NCBI GenBank assembly: GCA_002683135.1
Contig: NYSS01000005.1
Location: 166,834 to 230,833, forward strand
Origin: Planctomycetota bacterium
Lineage (GTDB): Bacteria > Planctomycetota > GCA-002687715
Reading direction: 5' to 3'
DNA length: 64,000 nt
The notes beneath the pieces are model-generated. The model was not told the origin of the DNA. It searched no databases and saw only the letters and a program-made list of their open reading frames with translations. Each line of letters starts with the position of its first letter. Positions within the stretch are counted from its first letter, which is position 1. Of this stretch, positions 5,595-18,209 are shown in pieces. Both the position numbers and the translations under genes were made by a program.

Positions 5595-8500
5595 TCAGTT
5601 CTGTGGGAACGTGTAGTAACCAGCAGGATATAGCGTTCCGGGTACCGTCGCCGCGCCCGGAGGCATGGGGCCGATCACCGGGATGATCGGGTCGAAGAGC
5701 GTGTCGATGGTGGAGGTGAACTCCGCGCCGTAAGGCGACTGGGCGCTGATCGCGAAGCGGATACGGCCCTCCGAGGAGGCTCCTCCGGCCGGGACACCCG
5801 GGTCCATCAGCCCTTCCGGGGTGGTTTGTGGCCCGCTCGCTGCCGAAGAGACGTCGACCTGCAGGAAGCTCGGCGGCGCAGGGGCACCGGACATGCTGGG
5901 GCCGCACACGGTGGCGGGCCCGTAGGCGAAGCAGACGTTGGCGATGGCCAGCCCGAGGACCGTTCCGCCGGCCCCGCCGCCACCGCCGCCCGGGAGGTTG
6001 ACGGGGATCACGGGATCACCGTTGTAGACCGGGAACGCATCGACGCCGAGCTGGCCCTGTTCGCCTTGGGCGAAGATGGCGCCGCCATCGCCGATCACCA
6101 GCAGTCGATCGCTGATGAGCACGACGCACCCGCCGCCGTTACCGCCGCGACCGCCGAGGGTGAGCGCGGGGATGAAGATCGCCAGCCCCCCGCCGCCGCC
6201 CGCGCCGCCCGACCCGCCGTAGAGGAGGCCGGAGCTAAAGGCTGTTCCGTCCGAGAAACCGGCGAAGTCGTTACCGTTCGCGCCGAAGATGAACCGGTCG
6301 TCATTGGGGGTGCCGACGACGGGGACAGGCAGGGCGTTTGTCGTGTTGCCGAAGGACAATCCCGCGAGCCCCCCCGGGCTGGTTCCCGACGTGCCGTTGC
6401 TGCCGGGAACGACGTGACCGGCGCCCCCGCCCGCTCCCGACTGCACGCCGATCGGAGCTGCCCCGAGTCCGCCCGTACCCTCGGTGCGAATCGCAGGCGC
6501 TGTTGTCGTGGAGTCGAAGCGGCCGGAGGGGGGGAAGCCGGCCATGCCGGCGAGGATGCCGGGGCCGACGCCGAAGTTGGGGCCGGGGATCTGCGGCCGG
6601 TTTTCGGGGAACCACGTGCCGCCGCGGCCGCCCTGGCCGGCGCCGGCCGGCGGGATCGTCCGGTCGACACGGACGCGGAACGGGCCACCGACGGTGACCC
6701 CCTGCAAGTTCAAGTAGCCCTCGATCATGAAGGCGTCACCGGCGCAGTCGATCATCCCGTCGACGATCAGATCGCTATGGGACATGAGTACGAGCGGCGG
6801 ATTGTCCGCCGGGTCGAACTGGATGCGGCTGTCGGCTGACAGGGTGTAGCCGACCGCCTTCACGATGACGCGGAGTTTGCTCACGACACCCGGGTTGGAC
6901 GGATTGACGGAGGCCGGGATCGTCACGATGGATCCCGGCGCGAAGAGCGCCGGGGCGGTGGGGTCGATGGGCGGAACGAAGGCGAACCCTCCGTTCACGA
7001 GCTCTATGGTCTCTGGCAACTCGATGCAGTCGAACTCGAAGCGTCGGGTGCCGCCGGGGGGCGGCCCGTTCAGCCGCGTGTTGAGCAAGAAGACATAGTC
7101 GTAGGACCAGGTCTCTCCGGGGGGAGGGCTCTTGGGGTCTTGCGCCTGGTCGCGAAGCGGCGACGGGTTCTGGATGACCGTGATGGCGGGCGCCGTCACC
7201 GGGCCACCGCTGAGCATGGGCACGATGCCGGGCGCCTGCGCGCCGGGGTCGCCAGCGGCGATTGCCTCGAGCGCGTTGCTGTCGAGCTTCGGGACCATGG
7301 GGTCGAGGAGGTTGGTCGGGTCGGTGAGGGGCGGGACGTACTTGAACGTCAGGGATGCGGTCGCCGGCTGTAGGTCCGGGTTATGGACGGTGACCCCGAC
7401 CCCCGTCGCGATGTTGGTGAACGCCGCGGGCGGCACCTTTACGCGCAGGGTTTGCTCGTCCAGGATCTCGACCTGCTCCGCGAATCGGGCGCCGAACTGC
7501 ACGGCCGGGACGACGATTTGTGTCGGGTCCACTGCGGGTATGCCGCCTCCCGGCGCCGCAAACGGGGTGAAATCCTGCACCGTGACACCGGGCTGCAGCG
7601 AGAAGAAGTTGTTCCCCCGGATGTCGACGAAGGTGTTGCCCGTGGCGACGGCGATGGCGGGGAAGATCTCGGTCACCGTCGGCGGGAGCGCGTCCTGCAG
7701 CACGATCACGCACGGGGGAGTGAACCCGAGGCACAGCGGACTCGAGATCGGGGTCGCCGTGCCCGTGTTGACGCACGGAGGATTTTCCAGGCGCAGCTCT
7801 CTGAAGCCGAGCTCCGGCCGGAACATCGTCGTTGCGGCGAACGCGGATGTTGACGCTGCAATGGAGGTACCAGATGTCGCTGTGAACGCCGGCTGCAGGA
7901 CGCCGTCCTGAAACACCCGCGTCGGGAAGAAGCTGCCCGCGGGGACGGTCGAAGCGGCCGCGAGGGGGCTCGTCGGCGGCAGGAAATTTGTCCCCGTCAG
8001 GGTGACGCTTGTGCCGGCCGCGTTGATCGCGATGTAGGTGAAGCCGCCGAGCTCGGGCGCGGCGGTCACCGTGGGAGTGCCTCCGATATGGAACGGTTGC
8101 AGCGGCAAATAGGTGAAGGTGACGGCGTTCGATGTTTCGCCGTCGCAGTTGTCCACCACGACGTCAACGGGCCCCGTGCAGAAGGGAGGCATGGACAGGA
8201 TGTCGACCGTGGTTCCGCCGGGGCCCGCGACAGCCTCGGGGGCGGTGAGCGTGACGGTGAGCGCGGGGTTTGCCTGGGAGGTGAACGTCACCGTTAGGCC
8301 GTCGAGGAACCAGCTCCCCTGGATTTGACGCGCGTAACCGCCTTCCGGGCTGCCCGTGGGTGTGCTGAACCCTGCGGCCGCAGGCCCCTGTCCGGTCTTG
8401 TAGAGAAACGGGGTCGGCGCGGTGATCGCTGCACCAGTCGGTGCGATGAGCGGGTTGTTGGCGAAGGTGACATCGACCGAACACGCGGCCGTCATCGGCG

Positions 8501-9272
8501 GCGCTGTCGGGAAGGCCGTCGGCGGCGTGACCACCATGATCGTGTTGCGGTCCACCACCGTGACCTGGGCGGCCGGCTGGGCGCCGAACAGGATCATGGG
8601 CGGCAGCACCGTCCAGTCCGACTGGGCAAGGAAGTTGTCCCCCGTGATCGTGACGAGGGTGCCACCCGACTCCGGCCCCTCAGTGGGTGTAATGCTCGTG
8701 ATGACTGGGATCAATCCCTCCGCCTCCGGGTCGACGAGTTGGAACCGGACGGGGTTCGAGAGGAGGAGCCCCGCGCCGCCGGGCGCGTCCGCGCACACGG
8801 CCTGCATCGTCAGGGTCTGGGCGGGAGATAGCAGAGGGAACAAGGGGTCGAACAGGTGTATCGCCAGGGTCAGAGTCAGCGTGTTGGTCGGGCCCTGCAG
8901 AGGGGGACCATAGGTCGGCGCGAACGGGTCGGCGAAGGAATCGAACAAGGCAATCGGGGGAGGTGTCATCGACGTGGTGTCGATGAAGACGAGCCCTTCA
9001 GGGAACACGGATGGCGTCGGGTCGTCGAGGCCGATGTAGAGGGCGACCGGGCGCGGGATGAGTTGAGCCGGAGGCGGTGTCGTGACCGTGGGAGACGAAG
9101 ACAGCGTCACGATTAGCTGCTCGGTGCGCACGATGTTCGGCAAGGTTGTCGGTGGCGATGCCTGGCCAGCGGCGAAGCTGTTCACGTCGACGGGTACGAG
9201 GGAGATCGTGTGGGTCTGGGCGGAAAGGGTCGTCGCGAGAAGAAGGGCGACCGTGATCGTGGTGACTCTCAT
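5595..9272 (-). CDS. Very large secreted IPT/TIG and glycine-rich protein (paralogue 1)
   Basis: The 1225-residue protein has a signal peptide (MRVTTITVALLLATTLSAQ) and several IPT/TIG Ig-like domains; the clearest begin PVITSITPTEGPESGGTLV (about residue 190) and PTVTEIFPAIAVATGNTFV (about 530). The last third is rich in glycine, with runs such as GGSGGAGGGGGLAIF and GGRGGNGGGCVVLIS between beta-like hydrophobic strands. No catalytic motif is seen. It is probably exported or surface-attached. It follows a second protein of the same plan by 11 bases, so the two form an operon and probably arose by duplication. The partner of the IPT domains cannot be told from sequence. Confidence 0.8.
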   Translation of the reverse strand: MRVTTITVALLLATTLSAQTHTISLVPVDVNSFAAGQASPPTTLPNIVRTEQLIVTLSSSPTVTTPPPAQLIPRPVALYIGLDDPTPSVFPEGLVFIDTTSMTPPPIALFDSFADPFAPTYGPPLQGPTNTLTLTLAIHLFDPLFPLLSPAQTLTMQAVCADAPGGAGLLLSNPVRFQLVDPEAEGLIPVITSITPTEGPESGGTLVTITGDNFLAQSDWTVLPPMILFGAQPAAQVTVVDRNTIMVVTPPTAFPTAPPMTAACSVDVTFANNPLIAPTGAAITAPTPFLYKTGQGPAAAGFSTPTGSPEGGYARQIQGSWFLDGLTVTFTSQANPALTVTLTAPEAVAGPGGTTVDILSMPPFCTGPVDVVVDNCDGETSNAVTFTYLPLQPFHIGGTPTVTAAPELGGFTYIAINAAGTSVTLTGTNFLPPTSPLAAASTVPAGSFFPTRVFQDGVLQPAFTATSGTSIAASTSAFAATTMFRPELGFRELRLENPPCVNTGTATPISSPLCLGFTPPCVIVLQDALPPTVTEIFPAIAVATGNTFVDIRGNNFFSLQPGVTVQDFTPFAAPGGGIPAVDPTQIVVPAVQFGARFAEQVEILDEQTLRVKVPPAAFTNIATGVGVTVHNPDLQPATASLTFKYVPPLTDPTNLLDPMVPKLDSNALEAIAAGDPGAQAPGIVPMLSGGPVTAPAITVIQNPSPLRDQAQDPKSPPPGETWSYDYVFLLNTRLNGPPPGGTRRFEFDCIELPETIELVNGGFAFVPPIDPTAPALFAPGSIVTIPASVNPSNPGVVSKLRVIVKAVGYTLSADSRIQFDPADNPPLVLMSHSDLIVDGMIDCAGDAFMIEGYLNLQGVTVGGPFRVRVDRTIPPAGAGQGGRGGTWFPENRPQIPGPNFGVGPGILAGMAGFPPSGRFDSTTTAPAIRTEGTGGLGAAPIGVQSGAGGGAGHVVPGSNGTSGTSPGGLAGLSFGNTTNALPVPVVGTPNDDRFIFGANGNDFAGFSDGTAFSSGLLYGGSGGAGGGGGLAIFIPALTLGGRGGNGGGCVVLISDRLLVIGDGGAIFAQGEQGQLGVDAFPVYNGDPVIPVNLPGGGGGGAGGTVLGLAIANVCFAYGPATVCGPSMSGAPAPPSFLQVDVSSAASGPQTTPEGLMDPGVPAGGASSEGRIRFAISAQSPYGAEFTSTIDTLFDPIIPVIGPMPPGAATVPGTLYPAGYYTFPQN

Positions 9273-9283
9273 GTGCTACGCCC

Positions 9284-12277
9284 CTACCAGCCCGTGGTAT
9301 CCGCGATTGGGTTTACGACCGCCGCCCCGTCGACCTGGGGCGTCGCGATGCCCATGGCGGGCAGCGTGAAACGAATCATGCCGAGGCTGCCGGGGCCCCC
9401 GTCGTTGATCCCGATGAGGGCTCCTGGCCCCGCCAGTCCACCGCGGGCGGTGAGAACAGCGGATGCGTTGACGGCGATCCCCTGGGTCGCCTGCAGCACC
9501 AGGCCACCCCCCGCTCCTCCTCCACCTCCGGCCCCAGGCAGGGTGCCGGTGATGACGTCGAAGGCGCCGGCCGTGCCGTCCTCGCCGTCGAGGTCGATGA
9601 CGCCGTTCATCGTGATGGTGCCATCCGCGGCTATCAGGATGCCGCCGCCCCCGTTGCCGCCCGAACCTGACAGGCCAATTGATGACGCTGCTGGCCCTGG
9701 GAAGTACGGCAACGCCGTGCCGAGGCCTCCAGCCGCGCCACCGCCGCCGCCGGGCGGGTCAAAGAACTCGGTGCCGTCACCGGCGCCCGCGATGGCGAAG
9801 GGGAGGTTCGCGAAGCCGAGGGCCGCGCCGCCGAGTCCGCCGGTGGGGGTGCCGCTGAAGCCGAGGCCCATGGCGCCGGGGAATGCCATGCCGCCGCCGC
9901 CGCCGCCGCCGGGCTGGACCGGCCCATGAAAGCCGCCGAGACCGAAGTTGTTGAACGGGACAAGCGCCAGCGAGTTGATCGGTCCGAGTCCGGGGAGGCC
10001 CGAGGCCACGCCCTGGAGGAGGTCCACGTCTCCGCCTCGTCCACCGGGGCCTCCGCCTGCGGGCGGTGCTCCCGTTGCGGGTATGGGCCCCGGAGCGCTC
10101 GCGAACGAGTCGCCGGACAGGTCGATCAACCCGTCGATCACGATGTCGCCTCCGGCGCGGATGATGACCGGACCGACACCGAACGCTTCGATGATCGTCG
10201 CGACGTCGATCGTGAGGTCCTCCGTGAACTCATAGATATTCGGTATCAGGAGCACGCCGGTGTTGAGGGTCAGCGTGCCCGGACCTGGGCCGAAGGTAGA
10301 TCCGGTCGCTCCGACGAGCGAGCGGACGATCCAGAAGTCGTCGGCTGTTCCCGCCGTCGTGGCTTGCTGGCCGTCGGGGTTGCGGAGGATCGCCTCCACT
10401 TGCATGGGCAACGGCAGCCCCAGGGCGGTGAGGTTTGGCGTTGTCAGGACGAGGTTCTGATCGTCGATGATGGTGATGTTAGCGAAGGCCGACTCCAGGA
10501 TCGTCCCACCAAGGCCGCTCGCCCCCAGGAGCGTCGCGTTACTCGACGGCAGCACGGTGTCGTTGGTAAAGAACCCCGCGCCAACGACGCTGATCGACTG
10601 ACCGCCGTTCTCGCGCCCCACGTTGTTCGGTGCGATCGAGATGATCTGCGGGGCTGCCATGGCGAAATAGGTGAACCCGTTGCCGGGCTCGGTGGCGGGC
10701 ACCGCGCTGAACGTCAGGTGCGGGCTGCCGCTCGGCTCGAGGCAGGGAGGCAGGATGAGCTGCGCGTACTTGGTGCCGGCGTTGCCGATCCCGCCGCTCG
10801 TGAGCCCCGGAGGGTTGAGCCCGGGGGGCAGGTCGGGGATGAGCGCCTCGATCACGAACTGACCTGGTGCGGGCGTCTGCACCGAGACGATGGGGAGCGC
10901 CGCGCTCGCGTCGGTCCCGTCCAGGTTTGAGCCGAGGTTCACCGTCGCCAACCCCGAGCGCGAATCCAGCGCGGTGTAGGACCCCATCGCCGGACAGGTC
11001 CCGGAGATGAAGATGGTCCCGCCGCCGGTTCCCTCGACGACGTTCGGCGGGTTGATCCCGGTCACGGTGACGTTGGCGAGGAGTCCGGGGCGAAACAGGG
11101 CGAATTCGGTTGCGGGCGGCGCGAGGACCGTCTCCTTCGGGGAAGACGGGAAGTGGTCGATATTGCGGACGACCACCTCGAAGAGGCCACCTGAGAGGCC
11201 CACCGGCGGGGTGGAAAAATCGACCTGAGTGTTGGTAATCGCGGAGGGCGTGAAGGTCGTTGGGCTCCCACCTTGGCTGAACCGCACCTCGGCACCTAGT
11301 AGGAAGCCGGCGCCCGTGATCGCGACCGCGCAATTGCCCGCAGTGAGGCCCGCCTGCGGTGTCATGGAGGTGAACACCGGGGTGATCCCGGTCTGGTAGA
11401 CGAGGTACGTCGGAGCGGAGAAGTCCCCCGGGGCCGGGCTCGTCGTCGTCGTTGCGGCGGGGTTGCCCGCGTTATAGAGACCGGTCGATCCGAAGTCGAC
11501 GCGGATCAGCGCCAACCCAGCTGAGGTCGTGGGCGGCGTGGGGATAGGACCCAGAGAGGGAGGCGCTACGACCATCAGCGCGGGCAGCACCGCGGGGCCG
11601 GGGTCATTGTCGATAAGGACGACCGAGAGCGCGTCGGATTCGTTGCCGGGGGTGGTCGTCGAGAGGAAAGACACCCGCGGGACGGTCATCGTCGCGCGTT
11701 CGAGAAATCCGGCCCCACTGATGATGATGGTCGGCGCTGACCCCTCTTGCACGACCTGTACGTCAAGCGTCGTGATGGAGGGTGACGTGGGGGGCTCATC
11801 GACGATGATGTCGACGCTGTTCGAGAACGCCATGGCCTCACCGCCCGGGCTCGTGGGCTGCCCGACGACAGCTTGCAACGCGAAGCCCACAGGCAACGGT
11901 ACCGGCGCGCCGAGGTCCGGGGGAACGCGAATCGAAAACGACACGGCGCCATTGCTGTCGAGCACGAGTGGGAAGCTGCCGCCAAAGAAACCGAGGCCGT
12001 CGTAGGGCCCGAATGGTCCGATCGTGAAGGGGTCGATGCCGAGCGCCCCGCTGAAGCCAGGGACGGTCATGGGCGTGGCGAGGGGGTTGCCCATGAACAG
12101 CGTCACCGGTCTGCCGCCTCCTCCGGCCGACGAGATGGAGATGGTGAGCATCTCGGTGCGGATGAAGGGCCCCGCGCCTCCGTCGTACGCGGAGGCGACC
12201 GAGAGCGACGGCGCCTGGGCGATGAGCGGTGGGCAAATGACGGCGCAGGTGATGAGGAGGCGAAGAGTCCGTTCCAT
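9284..12277 (-). CDS. Very large secreted IPT/TIG and glycine-rich protein (paralogue 2)
   Basis: The 997-residue protein starts at ATG 12277, where a GAGG site and a signal peptide (MERTLRLLITCAVICPPLIAQ) agree; the open frame extends 11 codons further without support. IPT/TIG-like segments include SPSITTLDVQVVQEGSAPT, PVFTSMTPQAGLTAGNCAV, GINPPNVVEGTGGGTIFI and ISIAPNNVGRENGGQSISV. A glycine-rich region then alternates GG-rich runs with short strands (residues about 730 to 950). The plan and the C-terminal pattern (DLSGDSF, GGPGGRGG, IDLDGEDG) match the downstream gene, which begins 11 bases after its stop. Function is unknown. Confidence 0.8.
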   Translation of the reverse strand: MERTLRLLITCAVICPPLIAQAPSLSVASAYDGGAGPFIRTEMLTISISSAGGGGRPVTLFMGNPLATPMTVPGFSGALGIDPFTIGPFGPYDGLGFFGGSFPLVLDSNGAVSFSIRVPPDLGAPVPLPVGFALQAVVGQPTSPGGEAMAFSNSVDIIVDEPPTSPSITTLDVQVVQEGSAPTIIISGAGFLERATMTVPRVSFLSTTTPGNESDALSVVLIDNDPGPAVLPALMVVAPPSLGPIPTPPTTSAGLALIRVDFGSTGLYNAGNPAATTTTSPAPGDFSAPTYLVYQTGITPVFTSMTPQAGLTAGNCAVAITGAGFLLGAEVRFSQGGSPTTFTPSAITNTQVDFSTPPVGLSGGLFEVVVRNIDHFPSSPKETVLAPPATEFALFRPGLLANVTVTGINPPNVVEGTGGGTIFISGTCPAMGSYTALDSRSGLATVNLGSNLDGTDASAALPIVSVQTPAPGQFVIEALIPDLPPGLNPPGLTSGGIGNAGTKYAQLILPPCLEPSGSPHLTFSAVPATEPGNGFTYFAMAAPQIISIAPNNVGRENGGQSISVVGAGFFTNDTVLPSSNATLLGASGLGGTILESAFANITIIDDQNLVLTTPNLTALGLPLPMQVEAILRNPDGQQATTAGTADDFWIVRSLVGATGSTFGPGPGTLTLNTGVLLIPNIYEFTEDLTIDVATIIEAFGVGPVIIRAGGDIVIDGLIDLSGDSFASAPGPIPATGAPPAGGGPGGRGGDVDLLQGVASGLPGLGPINSLALVPFNNFGLGGFHGPVQPGGGGGGGMAFPGAMGLGFSGTPTGGLGGAALGFANLPFAIAGAGDGTEFFDPPGGGGGAAGGLGTALPYFPGPAASSIGLSGSGGNGGGGILIAADGTITMNGVIDLDGEDGTAGAFDVITGTLPGAGGGGGAGGGLVLQATQGIAVNASAVLTARGGLAGPGALIGINDGGPGSLGMIRFTLPAMGIATPQVDGAAVVNPIADTTGW

Positions 12278-12571
12278 GACAGGCCTCGTGATCAGCAACG
12301 GGCGACCCAAGACGAAAGCGCAAGCTCCCGATCCCCGCGCGCCCCTTTAGCGTCCCCTTCCAGCCCGAAATGGGCAGGAAGTCCCTTTACGTATGCATCT
12401 TACGGCAGAACAGGCTGCCCAAGCAACCGGGACACCCTCAGCGGCTCATCGCGGGGCGGGGTTCCCAAAAGCCCGGTAGCCCCGAACAATGGCCGGTGCG
12501 GCTGTCATGGGGAGCGGGTGGGGCACCCGTTTCCCCCCGCCGCGCCTCAAGTTACCTGCGACCTCAACCTC
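12278..12571. other. Divergent intergenic region
   Basis: These 294 bases separate the minus IPT operon from the plus FHA-FtsZ-like gene and should hold both promoters. I see no convincing -35/-10 pair, operator repeat or small gene. The frames that cross it lack start signals and protein-like composition. Confidence 0.6.
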
Positions 12572-14248
12572 ATGGCGGAACTGCAGGTCCTCAACGGACC
12601 GCTGCAATGGAAGACTTTCAAGATATCCGGCCCGCGGTTTCTCATGGGCCGGCAGGACACCTGCCATCTCGTGCTGAACGACGGGTGGGTCTCCCGTGAG
12701 CACGCGGTGGTCATCGAGGCGTCAGCAGGCGAATACACGGTGCAAGATCTCGGCAGCGAGAACGGGATCTTCGTCAATGGGGCGCGGGTCCAGGACAGCA
12801 AGCTGAAGCACGCGGACATCTTGCGCGTGGGGCGGACGGAGATGCGCCTGTTCAACCCGACCGGCGAGGAGAGCGGCGTTGACCTGGGGGCGTTCACCCG
12901 CCCGTCGGGGGCTGGGCTGCCCGAGCCGTCGGAGGCCGCGAACCTCGACATGACCATTCACGAGCCCGGCGCGCTCAAGGTGGAGCGGCCCGACCTGCGG
13001 GATCGCGTCCGGCGTCTCGAGAAGCTCCTCAACGTGAAAGAGGAGGACAACAGTCGTCTCGCGGCAGAGAACGCGGTCCTCAAGCGCACGCTTGCCCAGG
13101 GCGGGCTGATCGACCCGGCTACAGGTCACGTCGACCTCCGACGGCTGACGACGTCCGCTCCCCGCGAGGCGCTGTCCCGGGACCTCTTGCCCCTGATCGG
13201 GAATCCGGCGTTCAGCGTTACCTGGCCGCTTTGTGACGGAGGCAGCATCGGTCAACTTGCGGCGGGGGACATCGCCCTCGGCGCGCATCGGCTCGGGATC
13301 GTGGGACTCGGGCGCGGGGGCGTTCGTATCGCGGACGCGATGCACGCCCTGGGGTGGCGGCACGTCGCGGCCGTCGCGGCCGACGCCGAGGTGATGGCGA
13401 CGGTGCCATGGGAAACGACGCTCGAGCTGCCAGCGGGCCTCGAGGATGTCGGGGCGGTGGGGGCGCTGGTCGAGGAGCGTCGCCCCGAGATACGCACCCT
13501 GCTGTCGGCCGCCTTGGGCGTGGACCGGACACTCCACCTCATCACGGTCGGGCTTGGAGGCGCCACTGGCATCGGCAGCATCCCGGTTGTTTTGGGGGCG
13601 CTCCAGGCGCTCGATCCAGACACCCCATGCGGCGTCATCCTCTCCGTCCCATCGACCGCGTCTGCGACGGCGGCTCACCGCATGGCGACGATGCGCGATG
13701 GGGTCAAGACGGTGCTGCGGCTGCACGACGCAGGGAAGATTCGCCCGTTCGTGCTGTTTGACGAGTCGCGGCTAGAGCGGATCGTAGGGGAGCAGGCCCG
13801 CTCGGCCCAAAACGCGACGATCGCGGGCCTCATAGACACAGTGGTGCGGTTGCCGGCGCTCCCGTCCATTGGCGGTGACGTCGACTCCGACGCGTTGCGG
13901 ACGTGCCTAGGGACCGAGGGGATGAGCTCATTCGGGCTCGCCGCCGCGAAGGAGACGGACGGAGCCTCAATCGGCGCTGCTTTGCGGCACGCGCTCAGTG
14001 ATGGTTGGCTGTGTTCGCGCGTCGCGCCATCCCGGGGCCGTACGACGGTTGTCCTGGCCATGATCGGTAGCGACGTTCTCGCTGAGGACGCCTCCGTGGC
14101 GAACCGTGTCGGGGCTGCGATCGAGGAGGTCTCGGAGTTGTTGCCGCAGGCGGAGGTCTCGAAAGGAATCTACGAAGATTGTGGGCAAGGAGTGCGCATC
14201 GTGGCCTGGGTCGGGGGGCTTCCTTTCCCGGAGAGTTTGGCGGTCTGA
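12572..14248 (+). CDS. FHA domain fused to an FtsZ/tubulin-like GTPase
   Basis: The 558-residue protein starts at ATG 12572, where the FHA fold begins. Residues about 5-95 are an FHA domain with G26-R27, S41-R-x-H44, N64-G and N69-G, the residues that bind phosphothreonine. Residues about 140-175 form a heptad-like coiled coil. From about 240 the chain follows FtsZ: glycine loop GLGRGGVRIAD (245-255), a tubulin-signature equivalent GGATGIG (329-335, canonical GGGTGTG), then GVILSVPSTASATAAHRM and DGVKTVL, ESRLERI, the long helix with an acidic T7-like loop DVDSD (436-440), and a second FtsZ-like C-terminal domain ending in a VRIVAWVGGLP strand. Family knowledge: GTP-dependent filament proteins. 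The fused phosphopeptide reader and the neighbouring PP2C and kinase suggest phospho-controlled assembly. Whether it hydrolyses GTP or polymerises is unknown. Confidence 0.75.
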   Translation: MAELQVLNGPLQWKTFKISGPRFLMGRQDTCHLVLNDGWVSREHAVVIEASAGEYTVQDLGSENGIFVNGARVQDSKLKHADILRVGRTEMRLFNPTGEESGVDLGAFTRPSGAGLPEPSEAANLDMTIHEPGALKVERPDLRDRVRRLEKLLNVKEEDNSRLAAENAVLKRTLAQGGLIDPATGHVDLRRLTTSAPREALSRDLLPLIGNPAFSVTWPLCDGGSIGQLAAGDIALGAHRLGIVGLGRGGVRIADAMHALGWRHVAAVAADAEVMATVPWETTLELPAGLEDVGAVGALVEERRPEIRTLLSAALGVDRTLHLITVGLGGATGIGSIPVVLGALQALDPDTPCGVILSVPSTASATAAHRMATMRDGVKTVLRLHDAGKIRPFVLFDESRLERIVGEQARSAQNATIAGLIDTVVRLPALPSIGGDVDSDALRTCLGTEGMSSFGLAAAKETDGASIGAALRHALSDGWLCSRVAPSRGRTTVVLAMIGSDVLAEDASVANRVGAAIEEVSELLPQAEVSKGIYEDCGQGVRIVAWVGGLPFPESLAV

Positions 14249-14304: not shown

Positions 14305-15555
14305 ATGGACATCCTGAATCGCGCACGCGGAGCGCTGTTGGGGATGGCAGTGGGTGAAGCTCTCGGGGCTCCGTTGGACGGATTGAGTCCGGAGGAGATC
14401 GAGGAGAAGGTCGGTCGCATAGACGGCTTCCTCGATCCGGCTGATACCCAGCCGGCGTATCGGTCTGGATACTTCACTCACCGGGCGTACGAGGACGAGA
14501 CCCAGGTCGCGTTGGCGACCGCAGAGACCCTGGTCGAGGACGCGGAGCTCCAGGCAGAGGGGCTCAGGTCGCGGCTCGAAGAACTCGGTCGACCCGTCGA
14601 GGGCAACGCGTTCGGTTGCTATCGGCGAGCCCGGCGTAACTTCCGCACCGCGGTCCGGCGCATGCTTGAGGGAGCGCCGTGGCAGGAGTGTGGCGTGAAC
14701 ACCGCCGGCGCCGGAGCGGCCAGTCGAGGTATTCCGATCGGGATCTGGTACCGCGATGAGCGGGATGGACGGCTTCGCGCGAGCGTCGAGGCGACGTTGT
14801 TGACGCATCGTGATCCCCGCGCGTGCGCAGCGACGGTCAGCGTGGCTGAGGCCGTGGCTGTCGCATTGGCTGCTGAGACATCCGACGCCCTACGTCCGGA
14901 GGCTGCCGCGTCCGCCATCGCCGCTTCCTGCCGCGACGCCGAGCGGCTCATGGAAGAGGAATATTCGGAGGTCCTGTATCCGGGATACCAGCCGTACCTG
15001 CATCAGTATTCGGACTCCACTTCGTTGCTGTCAGACCTCGTGCAGCTTGACATCGGGCCCGCGTTCGAGCGCATCGTCAAGCAGGCCTCCGATAAGGGGT
15101 CTCGGCCGATCACGTCTGCGACCCGCGGTTTTTCGCTGACGGCGGTCGTGTCGTCGCTGTATCTGTTCCTCACGGGCCTCGAGTCGTTTGAGGACACCGT
15201 GCTGGACACGATCTGCGAGGGCGGCAGCGCCGATACGCTCGGCTGCCTCGTCGGCGGCCTCTCCGGGGCCCTCCATGGCGTCGATGGAATTCCCGCGGAG
15301 TGGCGCGGGTCGCTCAAGAACAATGAGCATGTCGACGCCTACGGCGCCGCCCTCGTGGGGGGGGGCGACCGAGCGGCGTTGGCGCCGCTAGCTCTCACCG
15401 AGGCGTCGGTGACGCTTCCGGCCCCGCCGGGCCTTCGCAAACGATCGAGGCGGCGCCCAGACCCTCGCCCTTCGGCTCGGGGCCGGGGTGGCGCCGGGCG
15501 CCGCAAGGGAGGTGGTGGGCCTTCTATGGGAGGTGGTCGTGGAGGCGATCGATAG
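14305..15555 (+). CDS. ADP-ribosylglycohydrolase (ARH/DraG-like) family protein
   Basis: The 416-residue protein starts at ATG 14305 behind a GGGAG site. ARH-family marks are RGALLGMAVGEALGAP (residues 8-23), YEDETQVALATAETL (62-76) and GGSADTLGCLVGGLSGALHG (306-325), then IPAEWRG. The family removes ADP-ribose from proteins or nucleic acids using two metal ions held by a Thr-Asp-Asp set and a GGDxDT motif. Here the set reads E63-D64-E65-T66 and the second motif has S308 where an Asp is usual, so metal binding may be weaker or altered. The last 40 residues are Arg/Gly/Pro-rich and look disordered. It lies 56 bases after the FHA-FtsZ-like gene on the same strand, probably co-transcribed. Confidence 0.8.
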   Translation: MDILNRARGALLGMAVGEALGAPLDGLSPEEIEEKVGRIDGFLDPADTQPAYRSGYFTHRAYEDETQVALATAETLVEDAELQAEGLRSRLEELGRPVEGNAFGCYRRARRNFRTAVRRMLEGAPWQECGVNTAGAGAASRGIPIGIWYRDERDGRLRASVEATLLTHRDPRACAATVSVAEAVAVALAAETSDALRPEAAASAIAASCRDAERLMEEEYSEVLYPGYQPYLHQYSDSTSLLSDLVQLDIGPAFERIVKQASDKGSRPITSATRGFSLTAVVSSLYLFLTGLESFEDTVLDTICEGGSADTLGCLVGGLSGALHGVDGIPAEWRGSLKNNEHVDAYGAALVGGGDRAALAPLALTEASVTLPAPPGLRKRSRRRPDPRPSARGRGGAGRRKGGGGPSMGGGRGGDR

Positions 15556-16700: not shown

Positions 16701-18209
16701 ATGATCGGGACACGCGTCGGAGATTGGCTCATCACGGAGGAACTGGGAGACGGGGGGCACGCCTTCGTCTTCAAGGGAGTGCGTGATGGGGAGGTGGCCG
16801 CGATCAAGATGCTGAAGCCATCGGTCGCGAGCGAGGAGAACCTAGAGAAGCGTTTCAAGATTGAAGTCGAGGCGCTGAAGAGCCTGGACCATCCAGGAAT
16901 CGTCGGGTTCAAGGACTACCTGTGTGTTGGCGGGTATCACTACCTCATCCTGGAGTGCATGGACGCGGGTGCGATTGACCACCTCCTGCGTGTGAACGGT
17001 GCGTTGGAGGCGCGATACGCGCTGCCGATCTTCTACATGATCCTGGATGGGATGAGCTTCGCGCACTCCTTCGGCTACATCCACAGGGACGTCAAGCCGA
17101 ACAACATCCTGCTCAACAAGAGGGGCGAAGCGAAGGTCACCGACTTCGGCATCGCCAAGGTCGTTGGTGGCGAAGACTTGACCAGGCAGGGCTTCGTGCT
17201 GGGGACGACCCTGTACATGGCTCCGGAGTACCTGTCGCAGGGGGTCGTTTCTCCGCAGACGGATATCTATGCGTTGGGGGTCTTGCTGTACGAGATGCTC
17301 ACGAATCGGAAGCCGTTCGAGTTCGAGACCGACGATGAGCTGCCTGTGCAATTTGCGAAACGCGTGTGCACCGGGAATCCGCCACCTCCGAGCGTCTACC
17401 GTCCGATCCCCCCGGCGCTGGAGAAGATCGTCATGAAGGCGATCGCTCGCGATCCGAAGAAGCGGTATCGGCAGGTCGACAAGTTCCAGGCGGACTTGAA
17501 GAAGGCGTTTCCGGAGCTCGTCGAGCGGCCGATCGAGATCCCGGAGGGTCGCCCCAAGACCAGCGCTGTTCAGATCATCGGGGATGTCGCGGCCGGCGCC
17601 GGTCGGTCCCCCGCGGCGGGGTCCAACCCCTGGCTTGCTCTTGGTGCCGCAGGGCTCGCCGCCGCCGTGGTGGGGCTGGTCGCCGCGTTCGTTTTCGGTC
17701 AGGGCGCGGGGATCTCGAGCATCGCTGGGCTGCTGTCCGCCGCCCTCGCCATCGCCTTCACCATCAAGCAGCGGCGCCCGGCGCCGATTTCGAGGACGGA
17801 AGAAGCGACCTTGGACGCGTCAGCCGACGACTCGAGCGACCCCTTGCCGTTTCACGGCGGCGTCGCGCCCCAGGGCGAGGTCGAGGAGACCAACATCTCC
17901 GAGCTCAACGCCTTCCTCGAGGTCACCGAGGGGAAGGCCAAGGGCAAGCGCTATGGCGTTCGCCCCATCTCCCGTATCGGCCGCGATCTTCGCTTCGACA
18001 TCCGTCCACACGATCCCGAGATCTCGCGTCACCACGCGATGATCACCTTCACTGGCACGGGCTTCATCGTGAAGGACACGGGCTCGACGAATGGGACCTT
18101 TGTCAACGAAAACAAGGTGGCGCCTGGCACCGAGGCAGACCTGGAACACGGGAATATCCTCCGAGTGGGTCGCACCTCGATGAGGTTCGAGCACCAGAGG
18201 TCGGGCTAG
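16701..18209 (+). CDS. Hanks-type Ser/Thr kinase with TM segments and C-terminal FHA domain
   Basis: The 502-residue protein starts at ATG 16701, 11 bases after the phosphatase stop. The kinase domain (about 8-275) has the Gly-rich loop ELGDGGHAFVFKG, K36 in VAAIKML, H128-R-D130 with KPNN, D148-F-G and APEYLSQG; all catalytic residues are present. Two hydrophobic helices follow (about 311-335 and 342-359), then an acidic linker and an FHA domain (about 405-495) with IGRD, SRHHAMI and GSTNGTFVN. Both the kinase and the FHA domain should face the cytoplasm if the two helices form a hairpin. FHA domains bind phosphothreonine, so the kinase may recruit its own products. Its stop overlaps that of the convergent gene by four bases. 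Confidence 0.93.
   Translation: MIGTRVGDWLITEELGDGGHAFVFKGVRDGEVAAIKMLKPSVASEENLEKRFKIEVEALKSLDHPGIVGFKDYLCVGGYHYLILECMDAGAIDHLLRVNGALEARYALPIFYMILDGMSFAHSFGYIHRDVKPNNILLNKRGEAKVTDFGIAKVVGGEDLTRQGFVLGTTLYMAPEYLSQGVVSPQTDIYALGVLLYEMLTNRKPFEFETDDELPVQFAKRVCTGNPPPPSVYRPIPPALEKIVMKAIARDPKKRYRQVDKFQADLKKAFPELVERPIEIPEGRPKTSAVQIIGDVAAGAGRSPAAGSNPWLALGAAGLAAAVVGLVAAFVFGQGAGISSIAGLLSAALAIAFTIKQRRPAPISRTEEATLDASADDSSDPLPFHGGVAPQGEVEETNISELNAFLEVTEGKAKGKRYGVRPISRIGRDLRFDIRPHDPEISRHHAMITFTGTGFIVKDTGSTNGTFVNENKVAPGTEADLEHGNILRVGRTSMRFEHQRSG

Follow-up and report, generated by a model that had tools for sequence, protein, structure and literature searches.

Results

Domain order of the fusion protein

The stretch of planctomycete DNA analysed here, 64,000 nucleotides long and referred to as the window, contains a gene for a protein in which an FHA domain, a coiled coil and a tubulin-fold body follow one another in a single polypeptide (Table 1). 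This architecture, which an initial annotation had read from the sequence, was confirmed with high confidence by Pfam matches, heptad analysis, homology and an AlphaFold2 model. The FHA domain scores above the PF00498 cut-off, and the Gly-Arg, Ser-Arg-x-His and Asn-Gly residues that form the phosphothreonine pocket in the family (G26 R27, S41 R42 H44, N64 G65 and N69 G70) are all present in the alignment and invariant in three of three orthologs. The nearest FHA proteins of solved structure include GarA and OdhI. The variable linker that follows holds a short threonine motif, which is a candidate phosphorylation site at T128, and the a/d heptad periodicity of the coiled coil is clear. The GGATGIG signature and the acidic T7-like loop to which the initial annotation had drawn attention are both present in the body. 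That annotation had also known of no described FHA-FtsZ fusion, and we likewise found no published FHA-tubulin fusion in the open-access literature; the fusion is a new architecture inside a known superfamily.

Table 1. Features of the fusion gene and its downstream neighbours in the window
Feature	Coordinates	Strand	Basis
FHA-coiled coil-tubulin-fold fusion protein, 558 aa	12572..14248	+	ORF with exact limits (ATG at 12572, stop codon ends at 14248); two orthologs that agree in start and domain order
FHA domain, residues 24-87	12641..12832	+	PF00498 E 1.4e-16; invariant columns
Thr motif NLDMTIHEPG within variable linker, T128 and H130 invariant	12941..12970	+	Ortholog alignment; segment identities
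Coiled coil, residues ~138-175 (ortholog identity 59-69%)	12983..13096	+	Heptad analysis; identities
Tubulin-superfamily body, TubZ-like, residues ~237-558	13280..14245	+	AlphaFold2 and Foldseek; hhalign
T4 glycine loop GLGGATGIGS, residues 327-336, absent from both orthologs	13550..13579	+	Alignments
T7-like loop GGDVDSDA, residues 434-441; D438 retained, A441 in place of the second catalytic Asp	13871..13894	+	Alignment with E. coli FtsZ
ADP-ribosylglycohydrolase family protein, directly following gene	14305..15555	+	PF03747 E 2.2e-47; adjoins the fusion in two orthologous loci
PP2C phosphatase, predicted C-terminal transmembrane helix	15634..16689	+	PF00481 E 1.6e-15; hydropathy
Hanks-type kinase, two predicted transmembrane helices, C-terminal FHA	16704..18209	+	PF00069 E 5.7e-50, PF00498 E 5.7e-18; hydropathy
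FHA-domain protein (FHA2), convergent, one transmembrane helix	18206..19609	-	PF00498 E 5.3e-16; hydropathy

Homology of the body to the tubulin superfamily

Family profiles scored poorly against the window protein as a single sequence. PF00091 gave 20.7 bits (E 5.5e-4) against a cut-off of 33, TIGR00065 of the FtsZ family gave 21 bits (E 1.8e-4) against a cut-off of 295, and FtsZ_C (PF12327) did not match the protein. The profile check proposed in the initial annotation was thus sub-threshold in one half and null in the other, and it is other evidence that makes the homology firm. The body was searched by itself, as full-length queries brought swarms of unrelated FHA proteins. In 392 genomes of the phylum, this query retrieved only tubulin-family relatives, with E values down to 7e-21, and these comprised the two fusion orthologs, free-standing tubulin-like proteins (L034-L036, 7e-21 to 6e-20) and an eroded paralog, the set of which in the genomes of the free-standing family was extended by profile search. 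Two weak matches in the phylum (L052 and L053), in which only some 45 positions around the glycine loop aligned, were set aside.

Comparison of the window body with the free-standing relatives by hhalign gave an E value of 2.7e-17, phmmer likewise supported the homology, and the reversed and five shuffled controls gave no match, which rules out a chance-motif reading. The family profile matched FtsZ (6.8e-10) and RepX/TubZ (1.4e-9) in the PDB. Structure prediction, from alignments of nine sequences that included the intact relatives, returned a tubulin fold for the window protein (mean pLDDT 74, pTM 0.79), the best PDB matches of which in Foldseek were Bacillus cereus TubZ (4ei7, E 1.6e-11) and FtsZ (E 1.8e-11). 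The model of the most decayed ortholog was also tubulin-like but weaker (pTM 0.68; best match FtsZ, 1.3e-5). Given the homology to relatives, the null result of the shuffled controls, the profile comparison and the model, the fold assignment stands, and the window body belongs firmly to the FtsZ/tubulin superfamily. An assembly chimera is ruled out by the occurrence of the full-length fusion in three independent genomes.

Probable affinity to TubZ

The initial annotation had called the body FtsZ-like; as an identity, FtsZ is not favoured by the profiles. In hhalign comparisons the group of three orthologs matched TubZ at 97.8% (E 4.4e-12) and FtsZ at E 4.7e-7, and for the free-standing relatives the corresponding values were 4.8e-32 and 8.6e-8. 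A tblastn search with a free-standing relative matched gp138 of Bacillus phage G and plasmid tubulins of Bacillales (Paenibacillus and Lysinibacillus), and the phage and plasmid collections gave TubZ-type matches only. TubZ-like_C was matched in the free-standing relatives alone, at a sub-threshold score. Moreover, the C-terminal peptide that binds FtsA, SepF or ZipA is absent from the window protein, which ends in GGLPFPESLAV, as against NIDVPTFLRRSR in a planctomycete FtsZ (L051). As judged from these comparisons, the fusion body is best called a TubZ-like branch of the superfamily, apparently nearer to TubZ than to FtsZ. In a tree the five groups separated cleanly and the fusion clade nested in neither TubZ nor FtsZ, but one branch is long and the placement is therefore unsure.

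The TubZ/RepX proteins of plasmids and phages share the fold and are the best profile match beyond the fusion's own family, but they have neither an N-terminal FHA domain nor a coiled coil and have kept the GTP site. TubZ proteins form GTP-dependent filaments that, together with TubR and tubC, segregate plasmid or phage DNA; the fusion gene is surrounded by signalling genes, among them those for a kinase and a phosphatase. Bacterial FtsZ shares the fold, the T4-like GGATGIG and a T7-like loop, but is a weaker profile match, and the fusion differs from it in having eroded T1, T3 and T7 loops and in not adjoining division genes. An identity as FtsZl1/Tubulin_2 was rejected, as PF13809 matched neither the window protein nor any of 40 relatives. 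Some FtsZl1/Tubulin_2 proteins of Planctomycetes carry an N-terminal protein kinase, and the likeness lies in a tubulin-family protein with a coiled coil that is physically tied to Ser/Thr kinase signalling (PMC2875224). The FtsZl1/Tubulin_2 coiled coil, however, is C-terminal to the tubulin domain and the neighbourhood is of the vWA-GTPase type, in contrast to the ADP-ribosylglycohydrolase, PP2C and kinase genes that neighbour the fusion.

State of the GTP site

Alignment with E. coli FtsZ revealed changes in all four loops of the GTP site. T1 reads GLGRGGVR in the window protein versus GVGGGGGN in FtsZ, T3 reads AGLEDVGAVG versus GAGANPEVGR with loss of the GAG motif, T4 is kept with changes (GLGGATGIG versus GMGGGTGTG), and T7 reads DVDSDA versus NVDFAD, with the first Asp kept and the second replaced. 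The Asn of H7 is kept in the window protein and gone from both orthologs, in which the segment corresponding to GGATGIG has become EDINGVG (genome G003) or SEAASAQ (genome G002) and T1 and T7 are eroded as well. The fusion therefore does not hold the full set of T1, T3 and T4 loops and catalytic T7 Asp residues, and a working state of the GTPase named in the initial annotation is not borne out, given the loss of T3 and of the second T7 Asp in the window protein and of the T4 signature in the orthologs. The window protein probably does not work as an FtsZ-type GTPase, and a normal hydrolysis cycle is unlikely. As the least decayed copy it may still bind nucleotide, because the T4 loop, the H7 Asn and one T7 Asp are kept.

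One possibility is that GTP-dependent filament formation of the TubZ type persists in the window protein, with assembly seeded or blocked when the FHA domain binds a phosphoprotein, and that only the orthologs became pseudo-GTPases. The same retained T4 loop, H7 Asn and first T7 Asp speak for this reading, as does the window copy's branch, which is the shortest in the clade (0.36, versus 0.77 and 1.69). Against it are the missing GAG of T3, the altered T1 and the replacement of the second T7 Asp by Ala, and the orthologs, with a strongly conserved FHA domain and coiled coil, manage without T4. We consider such a filament former rather unlikely.

Orthologs and free-standing relatives

The only full-length orthologs found, two proteins that share 49% and 40% identity with the window protein, come from two other genomes, so the fusion was found in 3 of 392 genomes of the phylum, all from uncultured Planctomycetota. 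Three further members of the same family lack it. A scan of the named genomes with a single protein as query gave no match, and an aligned query gave the two orthologs only. Identity among the three proteins is 70-74% in the FHA domain and 59-69% in the coiled coil; in the body it falls to 25-34% for the N-lobe and 30-49% for the C-lobe. These segment identities, together with the losses in the pocket, suggest that selection holds the phospho-binding half far tighter than the GTP site.

It could be argued that the tubulin body is simply decaying and that the FHA-coiled-coil adaptor is the working part of the protein. The loss is indeed graded from the window protein through G003 to G002, and relatives that lack the fusion still have the other genes of the set. 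The body is nevertheless full length and free of frameshifts in three of three orthologs, the C-lobe motif YxD...R(I/V)xAWxGGLP is conserved among them, and the genomes with free-standing relatives hold a paralog that is similarly eroded but long kept. Simple decay thus appears distinctly improbable.

The free-standing relatives, from another planctomycete family, pass the PF00091 cut-off (37.3 bits) and have an intact GTP site (GQCGG, GAGKDMGRG and GAGGGTGGG). Their homology to the fusion spans the entire body (E about 1e-20 to 1e-24), but a Lys-rich N-terminal tail stands in place of the FHA domain and coiled coil. This histone-H1-like, Lys/Ala/Pro-rich tail of about 70 residues opens L034 (1255-1465, + strand) and is also found in L035 and L036; it possibly binds DNA or membrane. 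The eroded paralog in the genomes of this family is a second tubulin-like protein from which the GTP signature has gone (L037, 1492-2532, - strand; L038, 787-1827, + strand; L056, 1492-2547, - strand), and is a putative parallel case of pseudo-tubulin evolution.

Gene neighbourhood

Of all its neighbours, the ADP-ribosylglycohydrolase gene that follows the fusion gene is the most constant; its product might act on an ADP-ribosylated tubulin-like or signalling protein. In G002 the order fusion, ADP-ribosylglycohydrolase, PP2C and kinase-FHA is kept, and in G003 the first two genes are kept up to the contig end. In two related genomes of another family, G007 and G011, ADP-ribosylglycohydrolase, PP2C and kinase genes occur with a counterpart of FHA2 near the kinase, the glycohydrolase of G011 being an end fragment before PP2C at a contig edge, and at least the ADP-ribosylglycohydrolase-PP2C pair is present in G001 and G005. 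No fusion was detected in G001, G005, G007 or G011. Since these relatives have the set without the fusion, the signalling set is the older element, which the fusion either joined or dropped out of. The kinase and phosphatase neighbours lend support to the phospho-controlled part of the initial annotation. No division genes adjoin the fusion among the neighbours examined. Divergently upstream of it (5595-12310, - strand) lie genes for two large, apparently secreted proteins with repeats that look IPT/TIG-like by eye; both are kept beside the fusion in G003 and also match genes beside the G005 signalling set.

Associations of tubulin GTPases with FHA domains are known in bacterial conflict systems (PMC7159879), and the fusion might be part of such a defence system. 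Tubulin homologs and FHA domains both occur in these systems, and an ADP-ribosylglycohydrolase adjoins the fusion. The neighbours examined, however, include no vWA, MoxR, TRAFAC GTPase, nuclease or other effector gene, and the kinase-PP2C set is fixed in place across families, unlike mobile defence loci. We regard a role in defence as very improbable.

FtsZ in the source genome and the phylum

The source genome, 91% complete, yielded no tubulin homolog besides the fusion, and PF00091 matches occur in 4 of 199 genomes of the phylum. In published surveys the phylum is described as devoid of FtsZ (PMC12283558). The initial annotation had put forward that many planctomycetes divide without canonical FtsZ, and for the source genome and nearly the whole phylum its absence is supported here. 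The matches of the phylum search include one real FtsZ, L051. Divergent FtsZ proteins were seen in three Planctomycetota genomes (L051, 1459-2574, + strand; L058; L059), which are drafts of 81-89% completeness in which contamination is possible. All three end in a peptide like that which binds FtsA (NIDVPTFLRRSR, NIDIPTFLRRSR and DLDVPAFLRHR), and an FtsA-like gene lies beside FtsZ in two of the three (L051, FtsA-like at 174-1481).

As the sole tubulin homolog found in its genome, the fusion might replace FtsZ in the division of FtsZ-less planctomycetes. A link between FHA proteins and FtsZ is known in mycobacteria, where FipA (FhaB/Rv0019c) is reported to interact with FtsZ under the control of PknA (reviewed in PMC3989709). 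The likeness is that an FHA domain and a tubulin-family protein act in one phospho-dependent pathway, but FipA and FtsZ are two separate proteins, whereas here there is one polypeptide with a degenerate tubulin body, and the FhaB/FipA model matched only the FHA part of the fusion, below the cut-off. Moreover, so rare a gene, lacking even from three members of its own family, with an eroded pocket, no FtsA/SepF-binding tail, an affinity to TubZ rather than FtsZ and no adjoining division genes, is very unlikely to fill this role. A division role was set aside as the main reading on account of the rarity of the gene, the eroded pocket and the missing FtsA peptide.

Discussion

What is the function of a tubulin-fold body that is joined to an FHA domain and has an eroded GTP site? 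Starting from what was observed directly, namely the domain order, homology, predicted fold, pocket erosion and gene order, we propose with moderate confidence (a probability of roughly one half) that the fusion is a phospho-recruited, dimeric pseudo-tubulin scaffold within the Hanks kinase/PP2C set. A protein of the TubZ-like branch would have been fused to an FHA-coiled-coil module and drawn into this signalling set, with dimers or oligomers formed through the coiled coil. A threonine, either in a partner or at T128 of the fusion itself, may be phosphorylated by the membrane kinase, and the FHA domain of the fusion would then bind the phosphothreonine. GarA and OdhI are FHA proteins that are switched in cis, and they offer a model for T128 as the fusion's own phosphosite. 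Binding by the FHA domain might concentrate the body at the membrane complex or switch it in cis in the manner of GarA/OdhI, and the neighbouring PP2C phosphatase would reverse the switch. The body would now serve mainly as a scaffold for binding and assembly, having given up the full GTP-hydrolysis cycle.

A more tentative extension of the scaffold proposal, and one we hold to be possible but doubtful, is that the fusion is a nucleotide-independent pseudo-tubulin that is recruited through phosphothreonine, released by a dedicated phosphatase and used as a kinase-switched scaffold in cells that lack FtsZ. The GTP cycle is what defines tubulin-family proteins. A lineage that keeps its phospho-binding half while its GTP site wears away would let one see, as a natural experiment, how the tubulin fold is used without GTP, and would catch a cytoskeletal protein passing under Ser/Thr-kinase control. 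The protein also adds a putative TubZ-like branch to a phylum that is known for lacking FtsZ and in which division is poorly understood.
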